A DNA stretch of 64,000 nucleotides from Clostridia bacterium (GTDB lineage Bacteria > Bacillota > Peptococcia > DRI-13 > SM3-B62). This document shows, one piece after another, positions 290-13,728 of the stretch (position 1 is its first letter; each line of letters opens with the position of its first letter). Position numbers and translations under genes: made by a program. The notes under the pieces are model-generated. The model worked only from the letters and a program-made list of their open reading frames with translations. It was not told where the DNA came from and did no database searches. The stretch spans positions 1 through 64,000 of the forward strand of contig JAHDSQ010000011.1 of the NCBI GenBank assembly GCA_018432615.1. The letters are read 5' to 3'.

Positions 290-1582
290 CTATATTAAAT
301 TCATTTTTTTTGCTTTTGCCTTAAGTTCTAATCGGAAATCCGGATGAGATATTGCTATTAATTCATTCGTTCGCTGTTTGGCTGATTTTCCTCGTAATTG
401 TGCCACTCCATACTCAGTGACAATATAATTTACCTCATTTTTTCCGGTAGTAACATGAGCACCTAGTGCCAGTGTTGGAACAATTCTTGAAATCGTACCA
501 TTTTTAGCTGTGGATGGAAGCATTATAAAGGACTTGCCATCTTTTGAAATATTGGCAGCCCTTACGAAATCTAATTGTCCTCCTGAACCACTGTAAGGAA
601 TATAACCTAAACTTTCAGAACAACATTGTCCTAAAAAATCAACTTGTAAAGAACTATTTATACTAATTAATCTATTATTTTTACCAGCAATATATGGGTT
701 ATTGACAAAATCAACTGGATGCATTTCTACTATATTATTACGATGTATAAATTCATATAATTTCTTACTACCCAGTGCAAATGTAGAAATTATCTTACCT
801 GGCATGAAGTTTTTTTTTGTATTGGTTACAACTCCCGCTTCAACCAATGTTAAAATTCCGTCGCCTAGCATTTCACTATGCACACCTAATTCTCTTTTAT
901 TAACAAGTTTTGTCACTACCGCATTAGGAATAGCCCCAAATCCTACTTGAATTGTAGAACCATCCTCAATAAATTCGGATACATAATTAGCCATCTCCTC
1001 CTCAATCCTTCCAACTTTTGGAGGTTTTATTTCATACAATGGCCTATCATCTTCCACAACAGCTGTTACCTGCGAAACGTGGAGTAAATTATTCCCATAT
1101 GCATATGGGACGTTAGGATTAATCTCCAATATCACAGTTTTAGCTTTCTCGGCAGCCGCTAACGCATAATCTGTTCCTAAACTCACTGAAAAATATCCTT
1201 TTTTATCCATAGTAGAGGCTAACGTTGTGAAAACATCACACGAAATATAATCCCTTCGAATCAATTCCGGTATTTCACTGAGGTTAGTAGGAATAAAATC
1301 CATCCACCCTTCCTGTCCACCTTTACGAGTAGCAGAACCATAGTATAATGACATTTGTTGAATATTACCAACTGTTTCGTGATCATAATAATCAAAATGA
1401 AGTTGGGCTAAAATCTGACTGACTTTTACATTATTATAATTTCGGCGATATTTAGATAAAGTTTCTAAGATCGTTGGTGGTTCGCCAATCGACACAATTA
1501 TACTGTCCCCATTTTTAATTAATTTAACAGCTTGATCAGCAGAAATTAGTTTTCGTTTATATATTTCTTTATATATATTTAT
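290..1582 (-). CDS. Acetyl-CoA hydrolase/transferase family CoA-transferase (4-hydroxybutyrate/acetate type), start codon disrupted
   Basis: Family I CoA-transferase that moves CoA between acetyl- or succinyl-CoA and a carboxylic acid. The C-terminal half shows the family's GSGGQLDF motif, the VTEYGVAQLRGKS block with its glutamate, and the closing SHPDFR segment. Reading from the GTG at 1495 gives 401 residues and loses the N-terminal family block. Extending upstream recovers KEIYKRKLISADQAVKLIKNG in frame, and about 430 residues in total match the family's usual length. No ATG, GTG or TTG exists in that extension: the frame opens at an ATA (1582). A perfect AGGAGG (1599-1594) precedes an ATG at 1589 that is one base out of frame and meets TAA at once. 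It is the last gene of the HMG-CoA reductase/TRAP run. It may activate an imported acid or acetoacetate, which is inference. Confidence 0.85.
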   Translation of the reverse strand: MNIYKEIYKRKLISADQAVKLIKNGDSIIVSIGEPPTILETLSKYRRNYNNVKVSQILAQLHFDYYDHETVGNIQQMSLYYGSATRKGGQEGWMDFIPTNLSEIPELIRRDYISCDVFTTLASTMDKKGYFSVSLGTDYALAAAEKAKTVILEINPNVPYAYGNNLLHVSQVTAVVEDDRPLYEIKPPKVGRIEEEMANYVSEFIEDGSTIQVGFGAIPNAVVTKLVNKRELGVHSEMLGDGILTLVEAGVVTNTKKNFMPGKIISTFALGSKKLYEFIHRNNIVEMHPVDFVNNPYIAGKNNRLISINSSLQVDFLGQCCSESLGYIPYSGSGGQLDFVRAANISKDGKSFIMLPSTAKNGTISRIVPTLALGAHVTTGKNEVNYIVTEYGVAQLRGKSAKQRTNELIAISHPDFRLELKAKAKKMNLI

Positions 1583-2041: not shown

Positions 2042-3241
2042 TTATATGACACCTCTATCTCGAAGATCTTTTAATTCCTTAGGACCAATGCCTAAATATT
2101 TTTTATAAACTGTTTCATTGTGCTCCCCAATGTATGGTGCCGGCCCTATTGGCTCCGCTGGTGTTTCACTCATCTTAATTGGCTGCCCAATCATGCCAAT
2201 TTTGCCAACTGGGTACTCATATTCAAGAACCATTTCCCTTGCATTTACATGAGGATCTTTCACTACCTTTGATACATCATTAATCGGAGCTATTGGCAGT
2301 TTTTCTGCTAATCCTTCCATGAGTTCATTAATAGTATATTGTTTAATCCAATTTTCAAGTTTAGGTTTTACTCTTTTTTCATAAACATCTTTGACATTGC
2401 GTTTTTGCATTGTCTCAATCCCAGGTTCATTTGCAAATTCAGGTTCGCCAAAATATTCACATGCAATTTTCCATAATTTGTCCGTGTAACCCCCAAAAAA
2501 GATATATCCATCTTTTGCTTTGAAAGAACCATATGGCATTACAAATGGATGTTCATTACCCATCGGTTTTTGTATCGTACCTTCCATTATATAATTCGTA
2601 ACCATCGTTTCTGTTATCGCAAGAGTAGTATCAACCTGAGCGATATCAACGAATTGTCCTTTTCCAGTTTTCTTTACATGATGTAGAGCAGTAAGTAAAC
2701 CAATAGAAGCAAAAAGCGAAGCTGATAAGTCTCCAATAATTGTTCCTACACGAACAGGTGGTCTGTCTGGATATCCATTTATTGACCAAATACCACTTAT
2801 CGCTTGAGCTGAATTATCAAATGCCGGACGACTTGAATAGGGACTTTTATGTCCATATCCTGAAATTGCAACATATACTATTTTCGGATTAATAACTTTA
2901 AGCACTTCATAATCTAATCCTAATTTTTTCATTACACCCGGCCTATAGTTTTCTATTACAACGTCAGCTTTTTTTACTAATTTTTTAAATATATCTTTGC
3001 CTTCCGGTTCTTTTAGATTTAATGTAATCCCTTTTTTATTGCGATTATATTGAGCAAAATATCCACACATTTTCGACTCGCCTTCTCCGACATATGGAGT
3101 AAAGTTTCTTGCTTCATCTGGTGAATTTAATGACTCAACCTTAATGACCTCAGCCCCTAAATCAGCAAATATCATTGTACAAAAAGGACCAGCTGCATAT
3201 TTTGATAAATCAATAATGGTGATATCATTTAAAGGTTTCAT
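2042..3241 (-). CDS. CaiB/BaiF (class III) CoA-transferase
   Basis: The 399-residue product has the class III fold signature: N-terminal LNDITIIDLSKYAAGPFCTM, GAEVIKVE, YNRNKKGITLNLK, and VRVGTIIGDLSASLFA, whose aspartate is in the position of the catalytic Asp of formyl-CoA transferase. The C-terminal part has the usual VKDPHVNAREMV segment. These enzymes move CoA between carboxylates (formate/oxalate, carnitine, succinate/itaconate and others). The substrate cannot be read from sequence. Its place in the TRAP/MaoC/HMG-CoA reductase cluster suggests that it activates the imported acid. It starts at ATG behind a weak GGGAG and has 243 bases of AT-rich DNA upstream without a clear promoter. 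Confidence 0.93.
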   Translation of the reverse strand: MKPLNDITIIDLSKYAAGPFCTMIFADLGAEVIKVESLNSPDEARNFTPYVGEGESKMCGYFAQYNRNKKGITLNLKEPEGKDIFKKLVKKADVVIENYRPGVMKKLGLDYEVLKVINPKIVYVAISGYGHKSPYSSRPAFDNSAQAISGIWSINGYPDRPPVRVGTIIGDLSASLFASIGLLTALHHVKKTGKGQFVDIAQVDTTLAITETMVTNYIMEGTIQKPMGNEHPFVMPYGSFKAKDGYIFFGGYTDKLWKIACEYFGEPEFANEPGIETMQKRNVKDVYEKRVKPKLENWIKQYTINELMEGLAEKLPIAPINDVSKVVKDPHVNAREMVLEYEYPVGKIGMIGQPIKMSETPAEPIGPAPYIGEHNETVYKKYLGIGPKELKDLRDRGVI

Positions 3242-3484: not shown

Positions 3485-4261
3485 TTACCTGTTTTTTATC
3501 GTATAGCTTTTTTGAAGTCCTTCCCTAACATCTACTTGTACACTATAAGGTGGTATCGGATAACGCAACCCATTTTTGCTTAAACTCTCCATTCCATCAA
3601 TAGCTTTTAATAAATCTTCTGGCGTAACTGTCATTAGCATCTCATCATCATTAACCCCAGAATATCTTCTTTCTCCAAAACACGGAAGTGACATGCTCGG
3701 TTTCCCAGTGGCAATAGCTCTTCCCCACGCGTCAGAACAAGTAGATTCTCCAACCACACTCCATTCAAATTTTTGAAAACCTGAATATTGTAAACCTGCA
3801 ATGAATATAAACATTTGACCAGGCGTTGCATAAAAAAGACAAACATCTGGTGGATTTAACCGATTTGAAGTAAGTGGAGAAACAACCATCGCTTCATATT
3901 TACCATAAGGAACATGATAATGAGCTCTTTGATGAGCTGCTGAATCTTCGTCTTTATCATACCAAACACCTGTATACATTTTCCCTCCAAGCCATTCCTC
4001 ATTTCGCGGAACTAGACCTAGGATTCCTGCGCACTGATTATCTGGAAAATTTTCTGGTGATACTCCAACTGTCCACCCCTGCCGAACAGCTTGCCCCACC
4101 GCTTGACAGGCAAGTATAATATTTTGGGGTATACGTATTTTTGGTATATTAATTAAATCCTCTTTTTTCTCTAATAACTTCATTCCTATTGGTACGTTTC
4201 TTAATTTCAATAACTTATTAAGCCTTCCTGTTATTTCCTTCCAATCGTATGAATTGTTCAT
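3485..4261 (-). CDS. DUF169 family protein
   Basis: A 258-residue soluble protein of the DUF169 (COG2043) family. Recognisable parts are the N-terminal NVPIGMKL stretch, the ACQAVGQAVRQGWTVG block, a central GKYEAMVVSPL segment, and a C-terminal half with several cysteines (ESTCSDAW, SLPCFGERR). The biochemical role of the family is not established. Members occur beside catabolic and metal- or redox-linked genes in anaerobes. Here it lies between the TRAP large permease and the CaiB gene with a good ribosome binding site (GGGGAGGAG), so it probably belongs to the same transcript. I assign no function. Confidence 0.85.
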   Translation of the reverse strand: MNNSYDWKEITGRLNKLLKLRNVPIGMKLLEKKEDLINIPKIRIPQNIILACQAVGQAVRQGWTVGVSPENFPDNQCAGILGLVPRNEEWLGGKMYTGVWYDKDEDSAAHQRAHYHVPYGKYEAMVVSPLTSNRLNPPDVCLFYATPGQMFIFIAGLQYSGFQKFEWSVVGESTCSDAWGRAIATGKPSMSLPCFGERRYSGVNDDEMLMTVTPEDLLKAIDGMESLSKNGLRYPIPPYSVQVDVREGLQKSYTIKNR

Positions 4262-4433: not shown

Positions 4434-5714
4434 TCATTTCAGCGCATACGGTAAAAATGTGCTGATCTTTGGAATTAAAATAAATATTACCAGAGCTACA
4501 ATATATGAAATAAGATAAGGAACAACTTCTCTAGTCACTTCGTCCACCGGTGCATTGCAAACTCCTGATGCAATATATATGGATAACCCAAATGGTGGTG
4601 TTATTTGTCCTATTTGCATACATAGAATAAGCACTACGTTAAAATGTAGCAAATCCACTCCTGATGCTATTAACGCAGGATAAACGATAGGTACAGTTAA
4701 ATAAAGTATCGGTAGCGAATCCATGAAACAACCTAAAACTAAGAATAACAAAGAAACAACAAAAATTAACATTGTCTTACTTAATCCCAGGCTAAGAATC
4801 CATGCGCTTACATTTTGCGGAATCTTTGCATATGTAATAGGATTAGCAAAAAGCATCGCGCTAGCCACCAAAATAAAAATCATAGCATTAGTATTAACAG
4901 TATTAAATAGTGATTGTTTGAATTTCCCCCAGTCCAAGGTCCTATATATTAACCCACTTATAAGAAAAGCATATGCTACGCCCAGTGCTGCTGCCTCTGT
5001 TGGTGTAACAAAACCAGAATATATCCCCCCCAAAACTGCAACTGGCATTAATAAAGCAGGAATACTCATTAAAAAGGCCTTTTTCTTGTATTCTGAGGTT
5101 TGCATATGATCAGATATCTTAACTGTAATACCTTTAGGACTATTTCTATAACTTACAACAATTAGAAGCAATCCTAGCAAAATTCCAGGTACTATCCCGG
5201 AAATAAACAGTTCACCAACATCCCTTTGCACTAACGAACCGTAGACTATCATATATATACTTGGCGGTATCATCTGTCCTAATGTTGAGGATGCGGCTAA
5301 TAGTCCTGCACAAAATCTATTGCTGTAACCTGCTTTCCTCATTTCAGGAACCGAGAGTTCGGCTACCCCTGCTAAAGTTGCAGCAGAAGAACCTGTTATC
5401 GCTGCATAAACCATACTAACTACCACTGCAGTTATAGGTAAACCTGCCCTTTTTTTCCCGAAAATAGAATTTACAAAATTATAAATGTATTCGGATGGCC
5501 CACAAGAAGCCATAATATTGCCTGCCAACAAAAAGAATGTTACGGCTGTTAAAGTAAAACTATCAATACCTCCAAAAAAAGTAGTTGGTATATTAATTGT
5601 TGTGGACCCTATTGATAACAACAAAAGGAAAATAGCACCTGTAGACAGTGCAACCCATATTGGAATACCTATCACAAACAATACTAGTGTTCCTATCAAT
5701 CCTATAATTAACAT
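4434..5714 (-). CDS. dctM: TRAP transporter large permease (DctM-like)
   Basis: A 426-residue hydrophobic protein with about 12 predicted membrane segments. It shows DctM hallmarks: AAITGSSAATLAGVAELSVPEM near residue 110, LGQMIPPSIYMIVYG near 150, VTPTEAAALGVAYAF near 235 and ITPPFGLSIYIASGV near 375. This is the ion-coupled transport subunit of a tripartite ATP-independent periplasmic transporter working with the DctQ and DctP proteins encoded just upstream. The spacing to dctQ is 34 bases. TRAP systems import organic acids; with HMG-CoA reductase in the same run, mevalonate or a related hydroxy acid is a plausible load, which is inference. Confidence 0.95.
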   Translation of the reverse strand: MLIIGLIGTLVLFVIGIPIWVALSTGAIFLLLLSIGSTTINIPTTFFGGIDSFTLTAVTFFLLAGNIMASCGPSEYIYNFVNSIFGKKRAGLPITAVVVSMVYAAITGSSAATLAGVAELSVPEMRKAGYSNRFCAGLLAASSTLGQMIPPSIYMIVYGSLVQRDVGELFISGIVPGILLGLLLIVVSYRNSPKGITVKISDHMQTSEYKKKAFLMSIPALLMPVAVLGGIYSGFVTPTEAAALGVAYAFLISGLIYRTLDWGKFKQSLFNTVNTNAMIFILVASAMLFANPITYAKIPQNVSAWILSLGLSKTMLIFVVSLLFLVLGCFMDSLPILYLTVPIVYPALIASGVDLLHFNVVLILCMQIGQITPPFGLSIYIASGVCNAPVDEVTREVVPYLISYIVALVIFILIPKISTFLPYALK

Positions 5715-5748: not shown

Positions 5749-6243
5749 TTATTTTTTTATCTGTTGTAGTTTTCGTAATAAATCAATAAACCTTAGTATA
5801 CAAAATACAAACATTACAGCCATTGATATTGGGATAGTGGCATAAGGCAAGTAGAGTGGAAACGCTAAGCTAGCTGTTTTTGCGCCAATAGAACTCCTTA
5901 CTAGGTCAATACTATAAAGAAATATTAAAAACGAACATATTGTAGAAAATATGTTTTCAATTAAATAATAATAATACTTGCTTTTAATATTTTTTATCTT
6001 TGAAGGTACTAAATCCATAACAATATGTTTGCCATTAAAAATCATTGGACCGCTTCCTAATAAAGCTGCAAAAATTACTAAGTATCTTATAAGCTCCTCC
6101 CCCCACTCAGGAGAATAACCAATCAAGTAACGCGAAAGTGTTATGAAAAACACAAGGACTGCTGCAAACATTATTTCTATTCCTGCAACAACATTTATAA
6201 CTTTTGATATTTTTTCTACTGCAACACTAGTATTAAAATTCAT
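5749..6243 (-). CDS. dctQ: TRAP transporter small permease (DctQ-like)
   Basis: The 164-residue protein has four predicted membrane helices and the family pattern: an arginine/tyrosine-rich loop after helix 2 (TLSRYLIGYSPEWGEELIRY) and NGKHIVMDLVP before helix 3. DctQ is the small membrane subunit that pairs with DctM. The gene sits between dctP and dctM, as is usual. It is separated from dctP by 176 bases that contain a 13-bp inverted repeat. Confidence 0.93.
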   Translation of the reverse strand: MNFNTSVAVEKISKVINVVAGIEIMFAAVLVFFITLSRYLIGYSPEWGEELIRYLVIFAALLGSGPMIFNGKHIVMDLVPSKIKNIKSKYYYYLIENIFSTICSFLIFLYSIDLVRSSIGAKTASLAFPLYLPYATIPISMAVMFVFCILRFIDLLRKLQQIKK

Positions 6244-6419: not shown

Positions 6420-7496
6420 TTATTTTTTTAATTCGTCACCCACCCTAATGACCTCATCAACTAATTTCTGAGCTTCTGACCCTGCTGCTTCTACGTACAT
6501 CTTAATCGCATCTTCGCGAATGTTGTTGTAATTGGCCCAATCTTCTAATTCATCATCCGGAATTAAATAAACTTTTACACCATACTCACTTTGAAGTTTT
6601 TCTAACGCTTCTTTCTCTAATTTTGCAGTTTCCGTATTAGCGTACTCTATTGCCTTGGGCATTACCTTTGTTTGAATTATATCCTGCAGGTCTTCAGGCA
6701 AAGAATCCCACCAGTCAAGATTAACAATCAAAGGAATATCGTAACATCTGACATTTGTAGCTGTTAAATAATCTGTAATCCATTTTGCATCGTAGGAATG
6801 TAAAGTCGCACTTTGAAGACCATCTACAATTCCTTGAGTTAATGCCACAGGCACTTCTGGACCAGCAACAGTCACAGCGTTTGCACTTAATTTATCCAGT
6901 ACAAGTTTGCCGAACATGCCACCCGGATGCCTAACTTTCAATCCAGCCATATCCTCAGGTTTTTTAATTTCACGTGCATTGTTTCCTAATATATAGTGCC
7001 CGTATTGAGTATTTAAAACCCCTAGCCTGTATATGCCTTTTTCTATTAATTTTTCCCTTAATGTTGTTTCAATCAGACTATCCCATTGGTTTAAAATGTC
7101 ATATTGCTCTGAATCTCCCGGTTTGGTGTTCCAGAGAAAGGGCAAAGTGTATATTGCCGCTAAAGGTTCAATTGCCTCCACCATTCCTTCTATACTCAAA
7201 GCAGCTTCAACTGTTCCGCTCTGAACCATGCCCACTTCCTTATCTATTGTACCCAACTGGGAATTAGGATAAATATCTACAATCACTCGGCCATTTGTTT
7301 CCTTCTCAACTAATTCCTTGAAATATATTGAATTGCGGCCATGTTGTGTTGTGTCAGGATAGGAGTGCGCAAGCTTCATTGTATATACCTTTTCCTCATT
7401 AGGCGACGTTTCTGCAACCTCTTTTGAACATCCCGGGAGAACTAACGCAACAACACATAAAAACACTAGTAGAGTAAATAATACTTTTTTCTTCAT
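6420..7496 (-). CDS. dctP: TRAP transporter solute-binding lipoprotein (DctP-like)
   Basis: The 358-residue protein has a lipoprotein signal (MKKKVLFTLLVFL..., lipobox LPGC, Cys about residue 23) and a DctP core: YTMKLAHSYPDTTQHG, NSQLGTIDKEVGMVQSG, and a central GLKVRHPGG in which the conserved arginine that pairs with the ligand carboxylate is present. EVPVALTQGIVDGLQSA marks the second lobe. It captures the substrate outside the membrane for DctQM. The ATG follows a clear GGAGGG. An 86-base gap separates it from the upstream MaoC gene. Confidence 0.95.
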   Translation of the reverse strand: MKKKVLFTLLVFLCVVALVLPGCSKEVAETSPNEEKVYTMKLAHSYPDTTQHGRNSIYFKELVEKETNGRVIVDIYPNSQLGTIDKEVGMVQSGTVEAALSIEGMVEAIEPLAAIYTLPFLWNTKPGDSEQYDILNQWDSLIETTLREKLIEKGIYRLGVLNTQYGHYILGNNAREIKKPEDMAGLKVRHPGGMFGKLVLDKLSANAVTVAGPEVPVALTQGIVDGLQSATLHSYDAKWITDYLTATNVRCYDIPLIVNLDWWDSLPEDLQDIIQTKVMPKAIEYANTETAKLEKEALEKLQSEYGVKVYLIPDDELEDWANYNNIREDAIKMYVEAAGSEAQKLVDEVIRVGDELKK

Positions 7497-7582: not shown

Positions 7583-8005
7583 TTATTTTTCGCGGGCAGG
7601 CATAGTAACCGCAGTCCCCGTTATTACCACTTTCCCATCCTGGTTTGTACATGTAGTTTTTAAGGTCAATCTGTTTTTTTCTTCGTTCTTTTCAATAACT
7701 TCTACCTCTGCAGTAATTACGTTACCTATAAATACCGGATATTTAAATTCTATATCTTGACTTACATAAATTGAGCCTGCTCCAGGCAGTTCACTTCCTA
7801 AAAGTCCTGCCATTAGGCTCACCCCGAATAGCCCCTGAGCGATACGTCTTCCAAATCTTGTATTTCGCGCATATTCTTCGTTAATATGAATAGGATTCAT
7901 ATCACCTGTATTGCCAGCGAAAACCAGGAGTGCACCTTCAGTTATTTCACGTGATATCGAAGCTTTTTGCCCTATCTTGATATCTCGCATCGTTAAACAT
8001 TTCAT
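7583..8005 (-). CDS. MaoC-like (R)-specific enoyl-CoA hydratase
   Basis: A single hot-dog domain of 140 residues. It carries the hydratase motif FAGNTGDMNPIHINEEYA, with the Asp and His of the active site, followed by RFGRRIAQGLFG. Enzymes with this motif add water to, or remove it from, CoA-bound 2-enoyl/3-hydroxyacyl substrates. I chose the ATG at 8005 because AAGGAGTG lies directly upstream; a longer frame opens at a TTG (8050) without such a site. In context it could hydrate 3-methylglutaconyl-CoA to HMG-CoA or dehydrate a 3-hydroxyacyl-CoA. That assignment is inference. Confidence 0.88.
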   Translation of the reverse strand: MKCLTMRDIKIGQKASISREITEGALLVFAGNTGDMNPIHINEEYARNTRFGRRIAQGLFGVSLMAGLLGSELPGAGSIYVSQDIEFKYPVFIGNVITAEVEVIEKNEEKNRLTLKTTCTNQDGKVVITGTAVTMPAREK

Positions 8006-8050
8006 AATATCACTCCTTAAACATATTTTATTAAAGCACCACAAACCCAA

Positions 8051-9316
8051 TTATTTCTTTGTTAATTCTTTTATCAATTCCTGTGCGTAATCCATTCTGA
8101 CTTTTTTCTCTTTAACCATAACCTCTACTACCTGATCGAGAATATCGGCGGTGGCACCGGCCATAATCGCCACATTTCTAGCATGCAACGACATATGTCC
8201 TCTCTGGATGCCTTCGGTTGCCAGAGCGCGCATGGCAGCAAGGTTCTGTGCCAATCCCACGGCGGCAATCACTTCTCCCAATTCAGCGGCGGATTTAACC
8301 CCGAGTATTTTTACAGCAATCTTTGCTATTGGATGCACCTTGGTTGCCCCTCCTACCAAACCAACGGCCATGGGTATTTCAATCGAACCAACCAAATTGC
8401 CTTCCTCATTCTTTTCCCAAGTTGTTAAAGGACGGTAAACCCCGGTCCTGGCAGCATAACAGTGAGCGCCGGACTCAATGGCCCTTGTATCATTGCCTGT
8501 TGCAGTGACTATTGGAGTAATCCCGTTCATAATGCCCTTATTATGAGTAACCGCCCGATATGGATCAGCATCAGCAAAGGCATAGGCCGCTAACACCCCA
8601 TCCACGACCTCCTCGCCTCCCAGCGCATTCTTTGTTATTTCTGCACGAGCCCGAACCAGTCTTTTGTCCGCCAAATTAGAAAGAATGCGAAGATAAACAC
8701 GCCCTCCGGTGATTCTTTCCACATACGGTGCAACGGCTTCTGCCATTGTATTTACAGTGTTTGCTCCCATTGCATCTAATGTATTGACAACTAAATGTAA
8801 AACCACCATTGGTCCAACAAGAGAATCAAGAACCCTAACCTCCAGATCCTTCATGCCTCCACCCAAAGAAATAAGCATGGGGTCTTTTTCATTAGCAATC
8901 TTAATAATCTCTTCTTTGTTCTCCAATATTTTCAGTTTTGTATTAAATGGATCTTTAACATTAACCACTTGTACTTGAGCCATCATAATAGAACCGGTAT
9001 TGCTCGCAAAGAAACCTCCCGCTTCCCGGGCCATTTTGGCGGCATTACTGGCTGCAGCAACCACTGAAGGTTCTTCTATAGCCATGGGAATTAAGTATTC
9101 TTTCCCGTTAATCATGAAGTTAAGAGCCACACCCACGGGTAATTGAAATGCACCAACTACGTTTTCGATCATATGGTCTGCTTGGGAAATATTAAGTCCT
9201 CCTGTATCCAACATAGACTTTTGTTCTTCTGCTGTTAGATTGGCAAACTCTGCTACTTCCTTCAGTCTCTCCTCGACCGTTAACTTATAAAACCCCGAGA
9301 AACTACTTGTTTTCAT
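8051..9316 (-). CDS. mvaA: Class II hydroxymethylglutaryl-CoA reductase (degradative type)
   Basis: The 421-residue enzyme interconverts mevalonate and HMG-CoA. Its whole layout fits class II reductases such as the catabolic one of Pseudomonas mevalonii: ENVVGAFQLPVGVALNF (51-67), IEEPSVVAAAS with the catalytic Glu (about 81), DAMGANTVNTMAEAVAP (181-197), HNKGIMNGITP with catalytic Lys260, GNDTRAIESGAH with Asp276, and GHMSLHARN with the catalytic His near 378. It is the first gene behind a sigma-54 promoter. Neighbours include a TRAP importer, two CoA-transferases and HMG-CoA lyase, and no HMG-CoA synthase or mevalonate kinase is nearby, which favours oxidation of mevalonate over isoprenoid synthesis. 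Its base composition looks richer in G+C than the transporter genes downstream. Confidence 0.96.
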   Translation of the reverse strand: MKTSSFSGFYKLTVEERLKEVAEFANLTAEEQKSMLDTGGLNISQADHMIENVVGAFQLPVGVALNFMINGKEYLIPMAIEEPSVVAAASNAAKMAREAGGFFASNTGSIMMAQVQVVNVKDPFNTKLKILENKEEIIKIANEKDPMLISLGGGMKDLEVRVLDSLVGPMVVLHLVVNTLDAMGANTVNTMAEAVAPYVERITGGRVYLRILSNLADKRLVRARAEITKNALGGEEVVDGVLAAYAFADADPYRAVTHNKGIMNGITPIVTATGNDTRAIESGAHCYAARTGVYRPLTTWEKNEEGNLVGSIEIPMAVGLVGGATKVHPIAKIAVKILGVKSAAELGEVIAAVGLAQNLAAMRALATEGIQRGHMSLHARNVAIMAGATADILDQVVEVMVKEKKVRMDYAQELIKELTKK

Positions 9317-9398: not shown

Positions 9399-9416
9399 TT
9401 GCAATTCACATGCCAA
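9399..9416 (-). promoter_or_regulatory. Sigma-54 (-24/-12) promoter for the HMG-CoA reductase operon
   Basis: On the minus strand the site reads TTGGCATGTGAATTGCAA: TGGCA and TTGC with exactly ten bases between the invariant GG and GC. The predicted start is near 9389, giving a leader of about 70 bases before the ATG at 9316. The nearby sigma-54 activator gene supports it. Confidence 0.82.
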
Positions 9417-9721: not shown

Positions 9722-9789
9722 ATAGTATTGAGCAAATCAATAAATTCCTTTGGCATAAATGTTGCAATACAAACTTCTCACAATACTAT
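9722..9789. repeat. 9-bp inverted repeat flanking the plus-strand sigma-54 promoter
   Basis: ATAGTATTG (9722-9730) and its exact reverse complement CAATACTAT (9781-9789) bracket the -24/-12 element, with 50 bases between them. It could be an operator pair or a hairpin in DNA; the second arm falls inside the short 5' leader. Confidence 0.35.
9750..9767 (+). promoter_or_regulatory. Sigma-54 (-24/-12) promoter for the DRE-TIM lyase gene
   Basis: TTGGCATAAATGTTGCAA has TGGCA and TTGC with ten bases between GG (9752-9753) and GC (9764-9765). Transcription should start near 9777, 36 bases before the ATG at 9813 and just upstream of the TGGAGGTGA ribosome site. It shares the TTGGCAT...TTGCAA pattern with the divergent promoter. 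Confidence 0.85.
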
Positions 9790-9812: not shown

Positions 9813-10895
9813 ATGTTCAAAAAACCAGAAAAAGTCTACATTGGAGATGTTACTATCCGTGACGGTTTCCAACATGAAGAAAAATACGTTTCTTTAGATG
9901 CCAAAACTACTTACGCTGAATTGCTAATACTGGCGGGTGTAAAGCGCTTGGAATTGACAAATTTCGGTAATCCCTATAGTATGCCGCAGTTTAAGGATAG
10001 GCATGAATTAATGAAACGCGTACGTAACAGTAAACATCTAAAAAAAGCAAATGTTAATTGGGATGAAATTGAGCTTACTGTTGTAACAATTCGCGAACGG
10101 GCTGTGGATATAGCTATTGAGGCAAAAAAAGAAGGCTATGGCCCGGATCGTATACTAATGATGGTCTCAACAGATGAAGAACACCATTATGCTAACTCCG
10201 GAACAACACTGCCGGAATATTGGAAAGAGGCAGAACGCTGTATAAAAAAAGCCCGGGATGTAGGAATCAACATAAACGGTACCGTGAGCACAATTTGGGG
10301 TAGTCCTATCTCCGGTCCTACAAAATTAGAAGACGCGGTTTTATTCGCCAAGCATTGGCTAGAAATCGGAGCACACGACGTCGAACACGCCGACCACGAC
10401 GGTTCCTCCACTCCTGATGATGTTTACAGGTATTTTTCAATGCTTCTGGATGCAATTCCTGATCCAATGAAACACATTGCCCATTTCCACACAACTCGTG
10501 GCTGGGGCTTAGCTAATGTTTATTCGGCCTTGCAAGCAGGAGTGGTTTGCTTTGAAAGCACAATAGGCGGAATTGGCGGACAGCCGGCCAATTTCCTGGA
10601 CGATTGCCCTGTTGCAGGAACAGGGGAATATTATTATAAAAATCCTAATGAGGTAGGTCTTGTTTGCACAGAGGATATGGTCCTAATGATGGAAGAAATG
10701 GGTATTGATACTGGTATTGATTTCGAAAATATTTTTCGAATCGGTATTCTTATAGAAAAAACTTTAAACCGCAGACTCCGTTCAGAATCCATCCGTTCCG
10801 GACCAATCCCCAAAGAACCTAATGAATCCTTTAAAAGGATAGGATTAAAAGAACGCAAACTGGAACAAGGGGAACAACTAAACCAGCGTTTTTAG
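9813..10895 (+). CDS. DRE-TIM metallolyase-like protein (HMG-CoA lyase/isopropylmalate synthase superfamily), atypical active-site loop
   Basis: A 360-residue TIM-barrel protein. The metal and substrate signature is kept: DVTIRDGFQHE (Arg16, Asp17), and HFH (His224, His226) followed by TRGWGLANVYSALQAG. Where HMG-CoA lyases have GGLGGCP with the catalytic cysteine, this protein has GGIGGQPANFLDDCPVAG: Gln257 replaces Cys and a longer loop follows, with a cysteine eight residues later (Cys265). It therefore belongs to a distinct subfamily and may cleave or condense another acyl substrate. The gene has its own sigma-54 promoter and is followed by a hairpin. Database names such as pyruvate carboxyltransferase-like are possible; the reaction is unknown. 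Confidence 0.85.
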   Translation: MFKKPEKVYIGDVTIRDGFQHEEKYVSLDAKTTYAELLILAGVKRLELTNFGNPYSMPQFKDRHELMKRVRNSKHLKKANVNWDEIELTVVTIRERAVDIAIEAKKEGYGPDRILMMVSTDEEHHYANSGTTLPEYWKEAERCIKKARDVGININGTVSTIWGSPISGPTKLEDAVLFAKHWLEIGAHDVEHADHDGSSTPDDVYRYFSMLLDAIPDPMKHIAHFHTTRGWGLANVYSALQAGVVCFESTIGGIGGQPANFLDDCPVAGTGEYYYKNPNEVGLVCTEDMVLMMEEMGIDTGIDFENIFRIGILIEKTLNRRLRSESIRSGPIPKEPNESFKRIGLKERKLEQGEQLNQRF

Positions 10896-10994: not shown

Positions 10995-12746
10995 TTATAA
11001 GTTTAGTTCTTTCAGTTTTTTATAAAATGTTCTCCTGCTGATACCTAAAATCTTCATTGCTTCACTTTTGTTGTTATTTGTTTGTATTAAAGCTTCCAGT
11101 ATCGCCCTTTTTTCCGCATCTTTCACTCTACCCACCAGTGGCTTTGTTTGAGGGCTTTCCGTCCGCCCCTCATTACAGTTATCATCATTTGCCTTTAGAT
11201 ATTCAGGAAGTATCTTAATTGTAATAATATCATTAGCCATCACGACAAGATGTTCTATGACATTTTTCAGCTCACGAACATTCCCCGGCCAATGATAATT
11301 CAGCAAAAATCGCAAACATTCGGGAGAAATGTTCACTTGCTTTTTATACTTATTTTCATAGTATGTTTTATAATTTTCGACCAAATTAAACACATCAATT
11401 CTTCTCTCTCTTAGTGGAGGCAAAGTTATTGTAAATACATTTATCCTGTAAAACAAATCTTCTCTGAATTCCTTCATTTCGATCATCTGAGAAAGGTTTT
11501 TATTAGTAGCGGAAATGAATCTGACATCAATTTTTTTCGACTTCATTCCTCCCACTCTATTTAACTCTTTATCCTGTAAAAACCGTAATAGTTTTGTTTG
11601 CATAGTAAGAGGCATATCGCCAATTTCATCTAAAAACAATGTGCCCTCATTAGCCTGTTCAAATTTCCCAATTTTACCGCCTTTTCTTGCACCGGTAAAA
11701 GCCCCTTCTTCATACCCGAATAATTCGCTTTCCAACAGATTATCTGGAACAGCAGCACAATTAAGTGAAACAAAAGGTCCATCCTTACGGAAACTAGCAT
11801 CATGAATTGCTTTTGCCAAAAGTTCTTTACCGGTACCGCTTTCTCCAAGAATCAAGACGGGAGATTCTATTGAAGCCACCTTAGCAGCCAAATTGAGCTG
11901 TTTGCGAAGTTTAACACTAGTACCGATTATACTCTTGAAGGAACCCGGAAGTTCATAGCTAGATTTCATTTCATGCGCAAGTAACTTATTAATTAAGTTC
12001 ATTTTTTCAAGTTCAGTCGCAATGTTAGTTATTTTGGTTATATCTGAAAAAGCTGAAATGGCCGCTACTACTTCATCATTGAATTTTATAGGTGTAATAT
12101 TCGCCATTATTAAGATTCCCAAACTCCTGATGTTAATTATTTTACCAACAACAGGCTCTTTTGTTTTTAAAACGTCTAATATTTTTGCCTCTGGCTCTAT
12201 TTTACTTAGTTGACGACCGATTATTTTTTGTATATCTACTCCTAATATATTGCTATAAGCTTTATTAGCATATAAAATCGTACTGCTTTTATCAACAAGA
12301 ATAACTGCGTCGTTTAAATCATCCAGAATACATCTGGCTAAAGAAGTAGGCAGCAAAATCTGGTTCAAAAACTGCTCATCATTCATTATTTCATTTCTCA
12401 ATATTCTATTTTTGACAAATTGCAACATATTTATCACATCAATCAGTTTGCCATCATAATCTGTAATGAATATTTCCGTGTATTGCTCTTTTGTTGAATA
12501 ATATATTTTTATAATGTCATCACTCGTTGTAGGCCTCTGAATGCTAATATAATACTCTGAAATATAAGGCTTTATGTTTTGTTCAGTTTTGTCTGTAAAT
12601 AATATATCCCTAATTCTGACTACTCCTATTAGCTTTTTATCAGGCCCCAAAACAGGTAAGCAAAAATAATTGGTCTCCGTAAACAGTTTTTTAGCCTCAA
12701 TTATATTACTGTCTAAACTTAAGGCCTGGTTAAAAGGATACTGCAA
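10995..12746 (-). CDS. Sigma-54-dependent transcriptional activator with CBS and PAS sensory domains
   Basis: Bacterial enhancer-binding protein of about 583 residues. Order: an N-terminal CBS pair (about 1-125), a PAS domain (about 140-255), an AAA+ domain with Walker A GESGTGKE, the sigma-54 contact loop GAFTGA, Walker [10 protein letters not shown] and the arginine-finger region, then a Fis-type helix-turn-helix at the C-terminus ([20 protein letters not shown]). The TTG at 12746 has GGGGGTGA upstream; a TTG at 12773 would add nine residues. With two sigma-54 promoters 1.5-3.4 kb away it is the obvious regulator of the HMG-CoA cluster. CBS pairs often bind adenine nucleotides or CoA-like ligands, so energy or metabolite sensing is possible. 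Confidence 0.93.
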
Positions 12747-12781
12747 GAAAATCACCCCCCATTGAATTATCAATGAACTTC

Positions 12782-12828: not shown

Positions 12829-13728
12829 TTATCGGTTGTCAATATTCGTTCCCTCAATATTCATTTGATTAATCTTATTCTTTACAAGTTCTGATGCCTT
12901 CAAAAGTTGAGATAGATCAACCCCTGTCTTTATTTTCATTTGTTCCAGCATATTGATCAAATCCTCCGTGGCAATATTACCGACCGCACCGGGAGCAAAA
13001 GGGCACCCCCCTAATCCTCCTATCGCAGTTTCAATATAATTAAACCCTTGCTGTAAAGCAACCAGTACATTGGCTAAGCCCATACCCTGGGCATCATGCA
13101 GATGTAATATAAAACCAATGTCCTGGTATCTTTTTTTGAGTACACTAAGCACTTCTGTAATTTGCTTAGGATTAGCCGTACCGATAGTATCGGCTAAAGA
13201 TATTTCATCAACGCGGGACTCAAGGCCCGCGTCTATCATTTTAATGACTTGCGCAAGCGGTACATCACCCAGGAAAGGACAGCCAAAGGCCGTAGCAATT
13301 GCCAGCTTTATTTTTAATTTCGGATATTGGTTTCTTATGGCCTCTAAATCAGCAAAGGATTCCTTAATCGTCCTCTTTACATTCTCCCTATTATGCCTCC
13401 AGCTGACCGAAATAACATAAGTTATCTTCCTTATCCCCGCCTCCCAGGCCAGTCCCGCTCCCTTCAGATTCGGAACAAGGGCTGAAAACTCTACATCTTT
13501 ATACTCCCGGCACTCCCGGAGTATCCAATCCACAATTTCACCGGCATCTTTCATTTGTGGTATATCTTTGGGATTTACAAAAGAGGTTAACTCAATCTCT
13601 TTAATACCGGCTTTAAGCAGAGAGGAAATTACCGTAATTTTTGTCTCAGTAGGAATCCAGGTGTTTATGTTCTGAAAACCATCCCGCGGTCCTACCTCTA
13701 TGATATGCACCGTATCCGGCAATTTCAT
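12829..13728 (-). CDS. Hydroxymethylglutaryl-CoA lyase
   Basis: The 299-residue enzyme splits HMG-CoA into acetyl-CoA and acetoacetate. All active-site elements are present: VGPRDGFQN (Arg15, Asp16), the metal histidines in ILHLHDAQGMGLAN, and the cysteine loop GGLGGCPFAPGAVGN. I chose the ATG at 13728 because AAGGAG precedes it at proper distance; the longer frame to 13812 would overlap birA. It follows birA by 28 bases with no visible promoter between, so it may be read from the birA promoter. Together with the HMG-CoA reductase it forms a complete route from mevalonate to acetoacetate. Confidence 0.94.
   Translation of the reverse strand: MKLPDTVHIIEVGPRDGFQNINTWIPTETKITVISSLLKAGIKEIELTSFVNPKDIPQMKDAGEIVDWILRECREYKDVEFSALVPNLKGAGLAWEAGIRKITYVISVSWRHNRENVKRTIKESFADLEAIRNQYPKLKIKLAIATAFGCPFLGDVPLAQVIKMIDAGLESRVDEISLADTIGTANPKQITEVLSVLKKRYQDIGFILHLHDAQGMGLANVLVALQQGFNYIETAIGGLGGCPFAPGAVGNIATEDLINMLEQMKIKTGVDLSQLLKASELVKNKINQMNIEGTNIDNR

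Follow-up and report, generated by a model that had tools for sequence, protein, structure and literature searches.

A DRE-TIM lyase clade without the catalytic-loop cysteine that probably serves as HMG-CoA lyase in anaerobic mevalonate and isovalerate catabolism

Pseudomonas mevalonii catabolizes mevalonate with the products of the mvaA-mvaB operon, a class II HMG-CoA reductase and an HMG-CoA lyase. In the human HMG-CoA lyase (HMGL), Asp42, His233, His235 and Asn275 are the Mg ligands, and Cys266 is listed as critical (PMC6941031). A different kind of protein can fill the same slot, as in the (R)-HMG-CoA lyase route of Mycobacterium tuberculosis, which uses the unrelated Rv2498c, a member of the CitE-like family without similarity to DRE-TIM HMGL (PMC6689899). 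For Desulfococcus multivorans, a published proteomic study locates a gene cluster for isovalerate at 3.20 Mbp and reports that AcsA6, EchA2, Mcc and HmgL are formed exclusively on 3-methylbutanoate (PMC5109826).

Here, we describe an HMGL-like protein that carries glutamine in place of the loop cysteine (Gln type, as opposed to the canonical Cys type). It is encoded in a stretch of 64,000 nucleotides from a Clostridia bacterium, hereafter the window. Since the window starts at a contig end, the cluster may extend further. The relevant features are the following:

290..1495, minus strand: butyryl-CoA:acetate-type CoA-transferase, candidate acetoacetate or acid activator (under the NCBIfam cut-off)
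2042..3241, minus strand: CoA-transferase family III, best PDB match human succinate-hydroxymethylglutarate CoA-transferase
3485-4261, minus strand: DUF169 protein within the reductase/TRAP/CoA-transferase cluster
4434..5714, minus strand: TRAP transporter DctM (profile/Pfam matches)
5749..6243, minus strand: TRAP transporter DctQ (Pfam)
6420..7496, minus strand: TRAP transporter DctP, solute-binding protein (profile/Pfam matches)
7583..8050, minus strand: MaoC-type enoyl-CoA hydratase (profile/Pfam matches)
8051..9316, minus strand: class II (degradative) HMG-CoA reductase (TIGR00532, 511 bits, cut-off 260)
9400..9415, minus strand: predicted sigma-54 -24/-12 site TGGCATGTGAATTGCA upstream of the HMG-CoA reductase operon (perfect consensus match)
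9751..9766, plus strand: predicted sigma-54 -24/-12 site TGGCATAAATGTTGCA upstream of the Gln-type lyase (perfect consensus match)
9813..10895, plus strand: Gln-type (Cys-less) HMG-CoA-lyase-like DRE-TIM lyase, 360 aa (ORF, Pfam, PDB matches)
10566..10673, plus strand: remodelled catalytic loop, residues 252-287, GGIGGQPANFLDDCPVAGTGEYYYKNPNEVGLVCTE, with Gln257 for Cys266 and Leu283 for Asn275 of human HMGL (alignment; loop pLDDT about 50)
10995..12773, minus strand: sigma-54-dependent activator with CBS, PAS, AAA+ and Fis HTH domains (profile/Pfam matches)
12829..13728, minus strand: canonical Cys-type HMG-CoA lyase (GGLGGCP), downstream of birA

The reductase gene is located divergently upstream of the gene for the Gln-type lyase, and the activator gene follows the latter. 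The coupling of reductase and lyase resembles that in P. mevalonii mvaA-mvaB, whereas the Gln-type lyase, the sigma-54 control, a TRAP or TctA transporter and the anaerobic hosts set systems of the window type apart. The canonical lyase, which a preliminary description of this DNA had put about 2 kb away, is indeed found at a distance of 1.9 kb.

The reading frame of the Gln-type lyase starts with ATG, with GGAGG upstream. Its product matches PF00682 with an E value of 1.7e-32 (Pfam) and belongs to the DRE-TIM metallolyase superfamily by its Arg-Asp and HxH motifs and by its fold. HMG-CoA lyases are the best PDB matches at the sequence level and also account for all 14 best structural matches of the AlphaFold model (mean pLDDT 87). 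The score of 157 bits for the NCBIfam HMG-CoA lyase model NF004283 is under the threshold of 246 bits, which some Gln-type relatives with a short loop exceed. An identity as isopropylmalate, homocitrate or citramalate synthase is not supported (at most 46 bits versus NCBIfam cut-offs above 400). With classical HMG-CoA lyase (EC 4.1.3.4; human HMGCL, B. subtilis 1YDO, Acinetobacter 6NDS) the protein shares not only the fold, but also the Arg-Asp pair, the equivalent of Glu72, the HxH motif, the Glu-Asp after the loop and the genomic slot behind HMG-CoA-forming enzymes. On the other hand, identity amounts to 25-30%, the loop is longer by about 16 residues, a C-terminal extension is present, and Cys266 is exchanged for Gln, Asn275 for Leu, Tyr/Phe167 for Ile and a Thr for His195.

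In full agreement with the preliminary description, the arginine/aspartate and HxH motifs are intact (R16/D17, H224/H226), and residues 252-261 read GGIGGQPANF where HMG-CoA lyases have GGLGGCP. Residue 257 is Gln in 31/31 members of the clade, i.e., in 22/22 with a long and 9/9 with a short loop, and Cys in 28 of the 30 other lyases in the alignment; the entire clade thus lacks the loop cysteine of the classical enzyme. While the greater loop length stated earlier stands, the later Cys265 that was pointed out together with it is present but not conserved, with C, T, V, S or R found among relatives. Cys265 was therefore rejected as a displaced catalytic cysteine, and its pairing with the HMGL cysteine by phmmer must be regarded as an alignment artefact, given that residue 265 is variable and Gln257 invariant. 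A second loss had escaped attention before: the position of human Asn275 is occupied by Leu in 22/22 long-loop members (Leu283 here) and by Asn in all remaining alignment rows. Of the classical four-ligand metal site, Asp, His and His are kept and the fourth ligand is lost. In addition, His195 takes the place of Thr in the canonical ADT motif, and Asn260 is present, each in 22/22 long-loop members, and Ile or Val is found at the position of human Tyr167, where almost all Cys types have Tyr or Phe. The Gln/Asn/Leu signature recurs in 40/40 further Desulfobacterales copies and can thus be attributed neither to sequencing error nor to chance. Arg16, Glu47, Asp194, His224, His226 and Glu287 are conserved throughout the clade and Asp17 is replaced, by Glu, in two rows only, which argues against a decayed pseudoenzyme. 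By analogy, Arg16, Asp17, Glu47, His224 and His226 would act as in HMGL, and Asn260, Gln257 or His195 may replace the lost ligand and acid; in the predicted model, the loop has a pLDDT of about 50. Note also an HMGL-like protein from another genome (L087, G406), in whose loop, GGLSGTP, the cysteine is replaced by Thr.

A maximum-likelihood tree of 62 rows that included human and B. subtilis HMGL unites the Gln-type proteins in a single clade (99/99) with the long-loop group nested within it (100/99). The distinct DRE-TIM subfamily that had been postulated is therefore supported. The clade stands apart from every sampled Cys-type HMGL and adjoins Cys-type lyases. The outgroups sit on very long branches and do not fix the root among the Cys-type lyases, so that the tree is compatible with a position inside HMGL as well as with one as its sister. 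The proteins from L052-L054 have a long loop, yet retain Asn. The sequences would fit a stepwise order in which Cys was exchanged for Gln, the loop was then extended, and Asn was finally replaced by Leu and Thr by His. Distant Gln-type lyases, called short-loop (L052:5245-11206, L053, L018), are encoded beside MeaB, MaoC and a B12 acyl-CoA mutase that is closest to 2-hydroxyisobutyryl-CoA mutase. Of 242 Desulfobacterales genomes, 164 encode a member of the Gln clade, which also has a scattered distribution in Firmicutes and Synergistota. In the open-access literature we found no earlier account of an HMGL subfamily that lacks the cysteine, nor one of mevalonate catabolism under anaerobic conditions; the Gln-type relative is widespread and apparently unstudied.

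Within the window, regulation links this protein to the reductase. Perfect sigma-54 sites occur twice in the 64 kb versus 0.05 expected, both inside the 496-bp divergent region, and both predicted sites are conserved in L005 and L006. A scan of the window for the perfect consensus revealed none upstream of the canonical Cys-type lyase gene. This pattern, i.e., paired sites on lyase and reductase and none before the canonical lyase, identifies the Gln type as the partner of the reductase in the regulon and points to a little-described, sigma-54-controlled regulon for anaerobic mevalonate/HMG catabolism. Mevalonate or HMG-type acids would be imported by the TRAP transporter, mevalonate would be oxidized to HMG-CoA by the class II reductase and/or HMG would be activated by the SUGCT-like CoA-transferase, and the resulting HMG-CoA would be cleaved by the sigma-54-controlled Gln-type lyase to acetyl-CoA and acetoacetate.

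The association with the reductase is not confined to the window. A class II HMG-CoA reductase gene is adjacent to or divergent from that for a Gln-type lyase also in L005, L006, L009, L011 and L040. DXR was found in 7/7 host genomes tested, while HMG-CoA synthase was absent from all seven; as these hosts have the MEP route and lack the synthase, the reductase is regarded as catabolic, and a biosynthetic role was rejected for them. In L040 (genome G274) and L009, a sigma-54 activator, a TctA transporter, the reductase and the Gln-type lyase are encoded in one run. G274, a single contig with 100% completeness, contains the Gln-type lyase as its only NF004283 match, and the Gln type is likewise the sole HMGL-like lyase in G276, G592, G455 and G467, as judged from one profile search per genome, most of these genomes being unclosed. 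The reductase occurs in 7 of the 398 genomes of the phylum, too few for co-occurrence with the lyase to carry weight, and we relied on operon adjacency instead. A methylmalonyl-CoA mutase near the L005 cluster was considered as a pathway member and rejected, since a protein resembling methylmalonyl-CoA decarboxylase is encoded next to it and the two look like a methylmalonyl-CoA module of their own. In the complete genome G091, homologues of the activator, the reductase (60% identical) and the TctA protein (61%) are encoded, and an HMGL of normal length occupies the lyase slot. This HMGL (L094:7645-8568) reads GGVGGSP, so that here, too, the enzyme in this slot has lost the catalytic Cys, independently and in favour of Ser.

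A second context is unrelated to the first. In L008, L012, L014, L041-L043, L045, L046, L091, L129 and L132, genes for a carboxyltransferase and a crotonase-type enoyl-CoA hydratase reside beside that for the Gln-type lyase, often accompanied by acyl-CoA dehydrogenases. This is the order expected for isovalerate/leucine degradation, and the Gln type would close this anaerobic pathway after carboxyltransferase and hydratase. The best PDB matches of the carboxyltransferase are propionyl-CoA carboxylase beta chains, and MCC beta chains rank lower. As no biotin carboxylase was found among the ten neighbours scanned, the protein is termed MCC-like from its context, without a family model. In the putative genome of D. 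multivorans DSM 2059 (G416; single contig, 4,455,399 bp), the gene for the Gln-type lyase is located at 3.210 Mbp, flanked by genes for an acyl-CoA synthetase, a carboxyltransferase and a hydratase, and the two Cys-type lyases are encoded at 0.12 and 1.31 Mbp. Because position and gene content match the published isovalerate cluster, HmgL is very probably the Gln-type protein, whose induction on isovalerate would then be supported by the published proteomics. The putative D. multivorans protein reads GGLGGQPANF and is 66-68% identical to close relatives; its partners are the acyl-CoA synthetase, Mcc and EchA2, whereas the Gln type in the window is the partner of HMG-CoA reductase. The passages considered from PMC5109826 do not mention the missing cysteine.

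Taken together, we consider it probable that the Gln type catalyses the same reaction as classical HMG-CoA lyase, but with a remodelled active site that has neither the loop cysteine nor the Asn ligand. This is the most economical explanation because the two routes share HMG-CoA, which we infer to be the substrate, and because genomes with a single lyase rely on the Gln type. Against it stand the critical Cys266 and the metal ligand Asn275 of the human enzyme (PMC6941031). The loss of both, a radical change of the loop, would be easier to understand if the Gln type cleaved another substrate, either a related hydroxyacyl-CoA such as citramalyl-CoA or a branched hydroxy-dicarboxyl-CoA provided by the MaoC hydratase, and left HMG-CoA to the canonical lyase. 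The neighbouring MaoC and mesaconate/HMG-type CoA-transferase genes are compatible with such a role, as is the location of distant short-loop relatives beside a 2-hydroxyisobutyryl-CoA-mutase-like enzyme and MaoC. However, HMG-CoA is the sole intermediate common to the two unrelated routes, the only HMGL-like lyase of G274 is a Gln type encoded beside the reductase, and the cluster in putative D. multivorans is specific for isovalerate, which makes a different substrate unlikely. For related reasons we do not favour the different C-C cleavage or condensation step originally suggested: the Gln type fills the HMG-CoA lyase slot of two unrelated routes ending at HMG-CoA, it is the sole HMGL-like lyase found in some genomes, and it is the Gln type, not the canonical lyase, that is paired with the reductase by sigma-54 sites. 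While loop cysteine and Asn ligand are treated as defining HMG-CoA lyase, a clade devoid of both would thus fill the lyase step. It would permit a direct test of the role of the cysteine, and the annotation of a common anaerobic step would be corrected.

The coexistence of both types in one genome calls for a separate explanation. Genes for Gln-type and Cys-type lyases are adjacent in L041, L042, L043, L046, L055 and L011 and even overlap in L041 and L042. The recurrence of these tandem pairs is odd under plain redundancy, which also speaks against a simply isofunctional enzyme, and it suggests a division of labour by stereochemistry, substrate or condition, or a complex. Division of labour does occur in nature, as M. 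tuberculosis illustrates with its (R)-HMG-CoA route and the unrelated lyase employed there (PMC6689899). Following this example, the Gln type could cleave (R)-HMG-CoA or another isomer and the Cys type (S)-HMG-CoA, in line with the tandem pairs and the MaoC hydratase in the window. Yet most Gln-type contexts contain class II HMG-CoA reductases or crotonase-type hydratases, from both of which (S)-HMG-CoA is expected, and single-lyase genomes exist, so that we regard a stereochemical split as very unlikely. Alternatively, both proteins could form a heteromeric lyase, each supplying residues that the other has lost. Adjacent or overlapping genes could be read in this way, as could changes in the conserved ED motif that follows the loop in the Cys-type partners of L041, L043 and L046. 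HMGL is a homodimer, however, several genomes contain the Gln type only, and in the window the two genes are under different control; a joint enzyme is thus very unlikely. More tentatively, and with slightly less than even chances, the Gln type may constitute another class of HMG-CoA lyase with a chemistry of its own that is standard in anaerobic isovalerate/mevalonate catabolism and has either a new fourth metal ligand, for which Asn260, Gln257 and His195 are candidates, combined with thiol-free protonation of the acetyl-CoA enolate, or a different stereoisomer as substrate, or a heteromeric organization with the Cys type. Multiple copies of the Gln type itself also occur: Desulfosarcina alkanivorans (L013, L012) has two near-identical Gln-type lyase copies about 19 kb apart and a third, more distant one.
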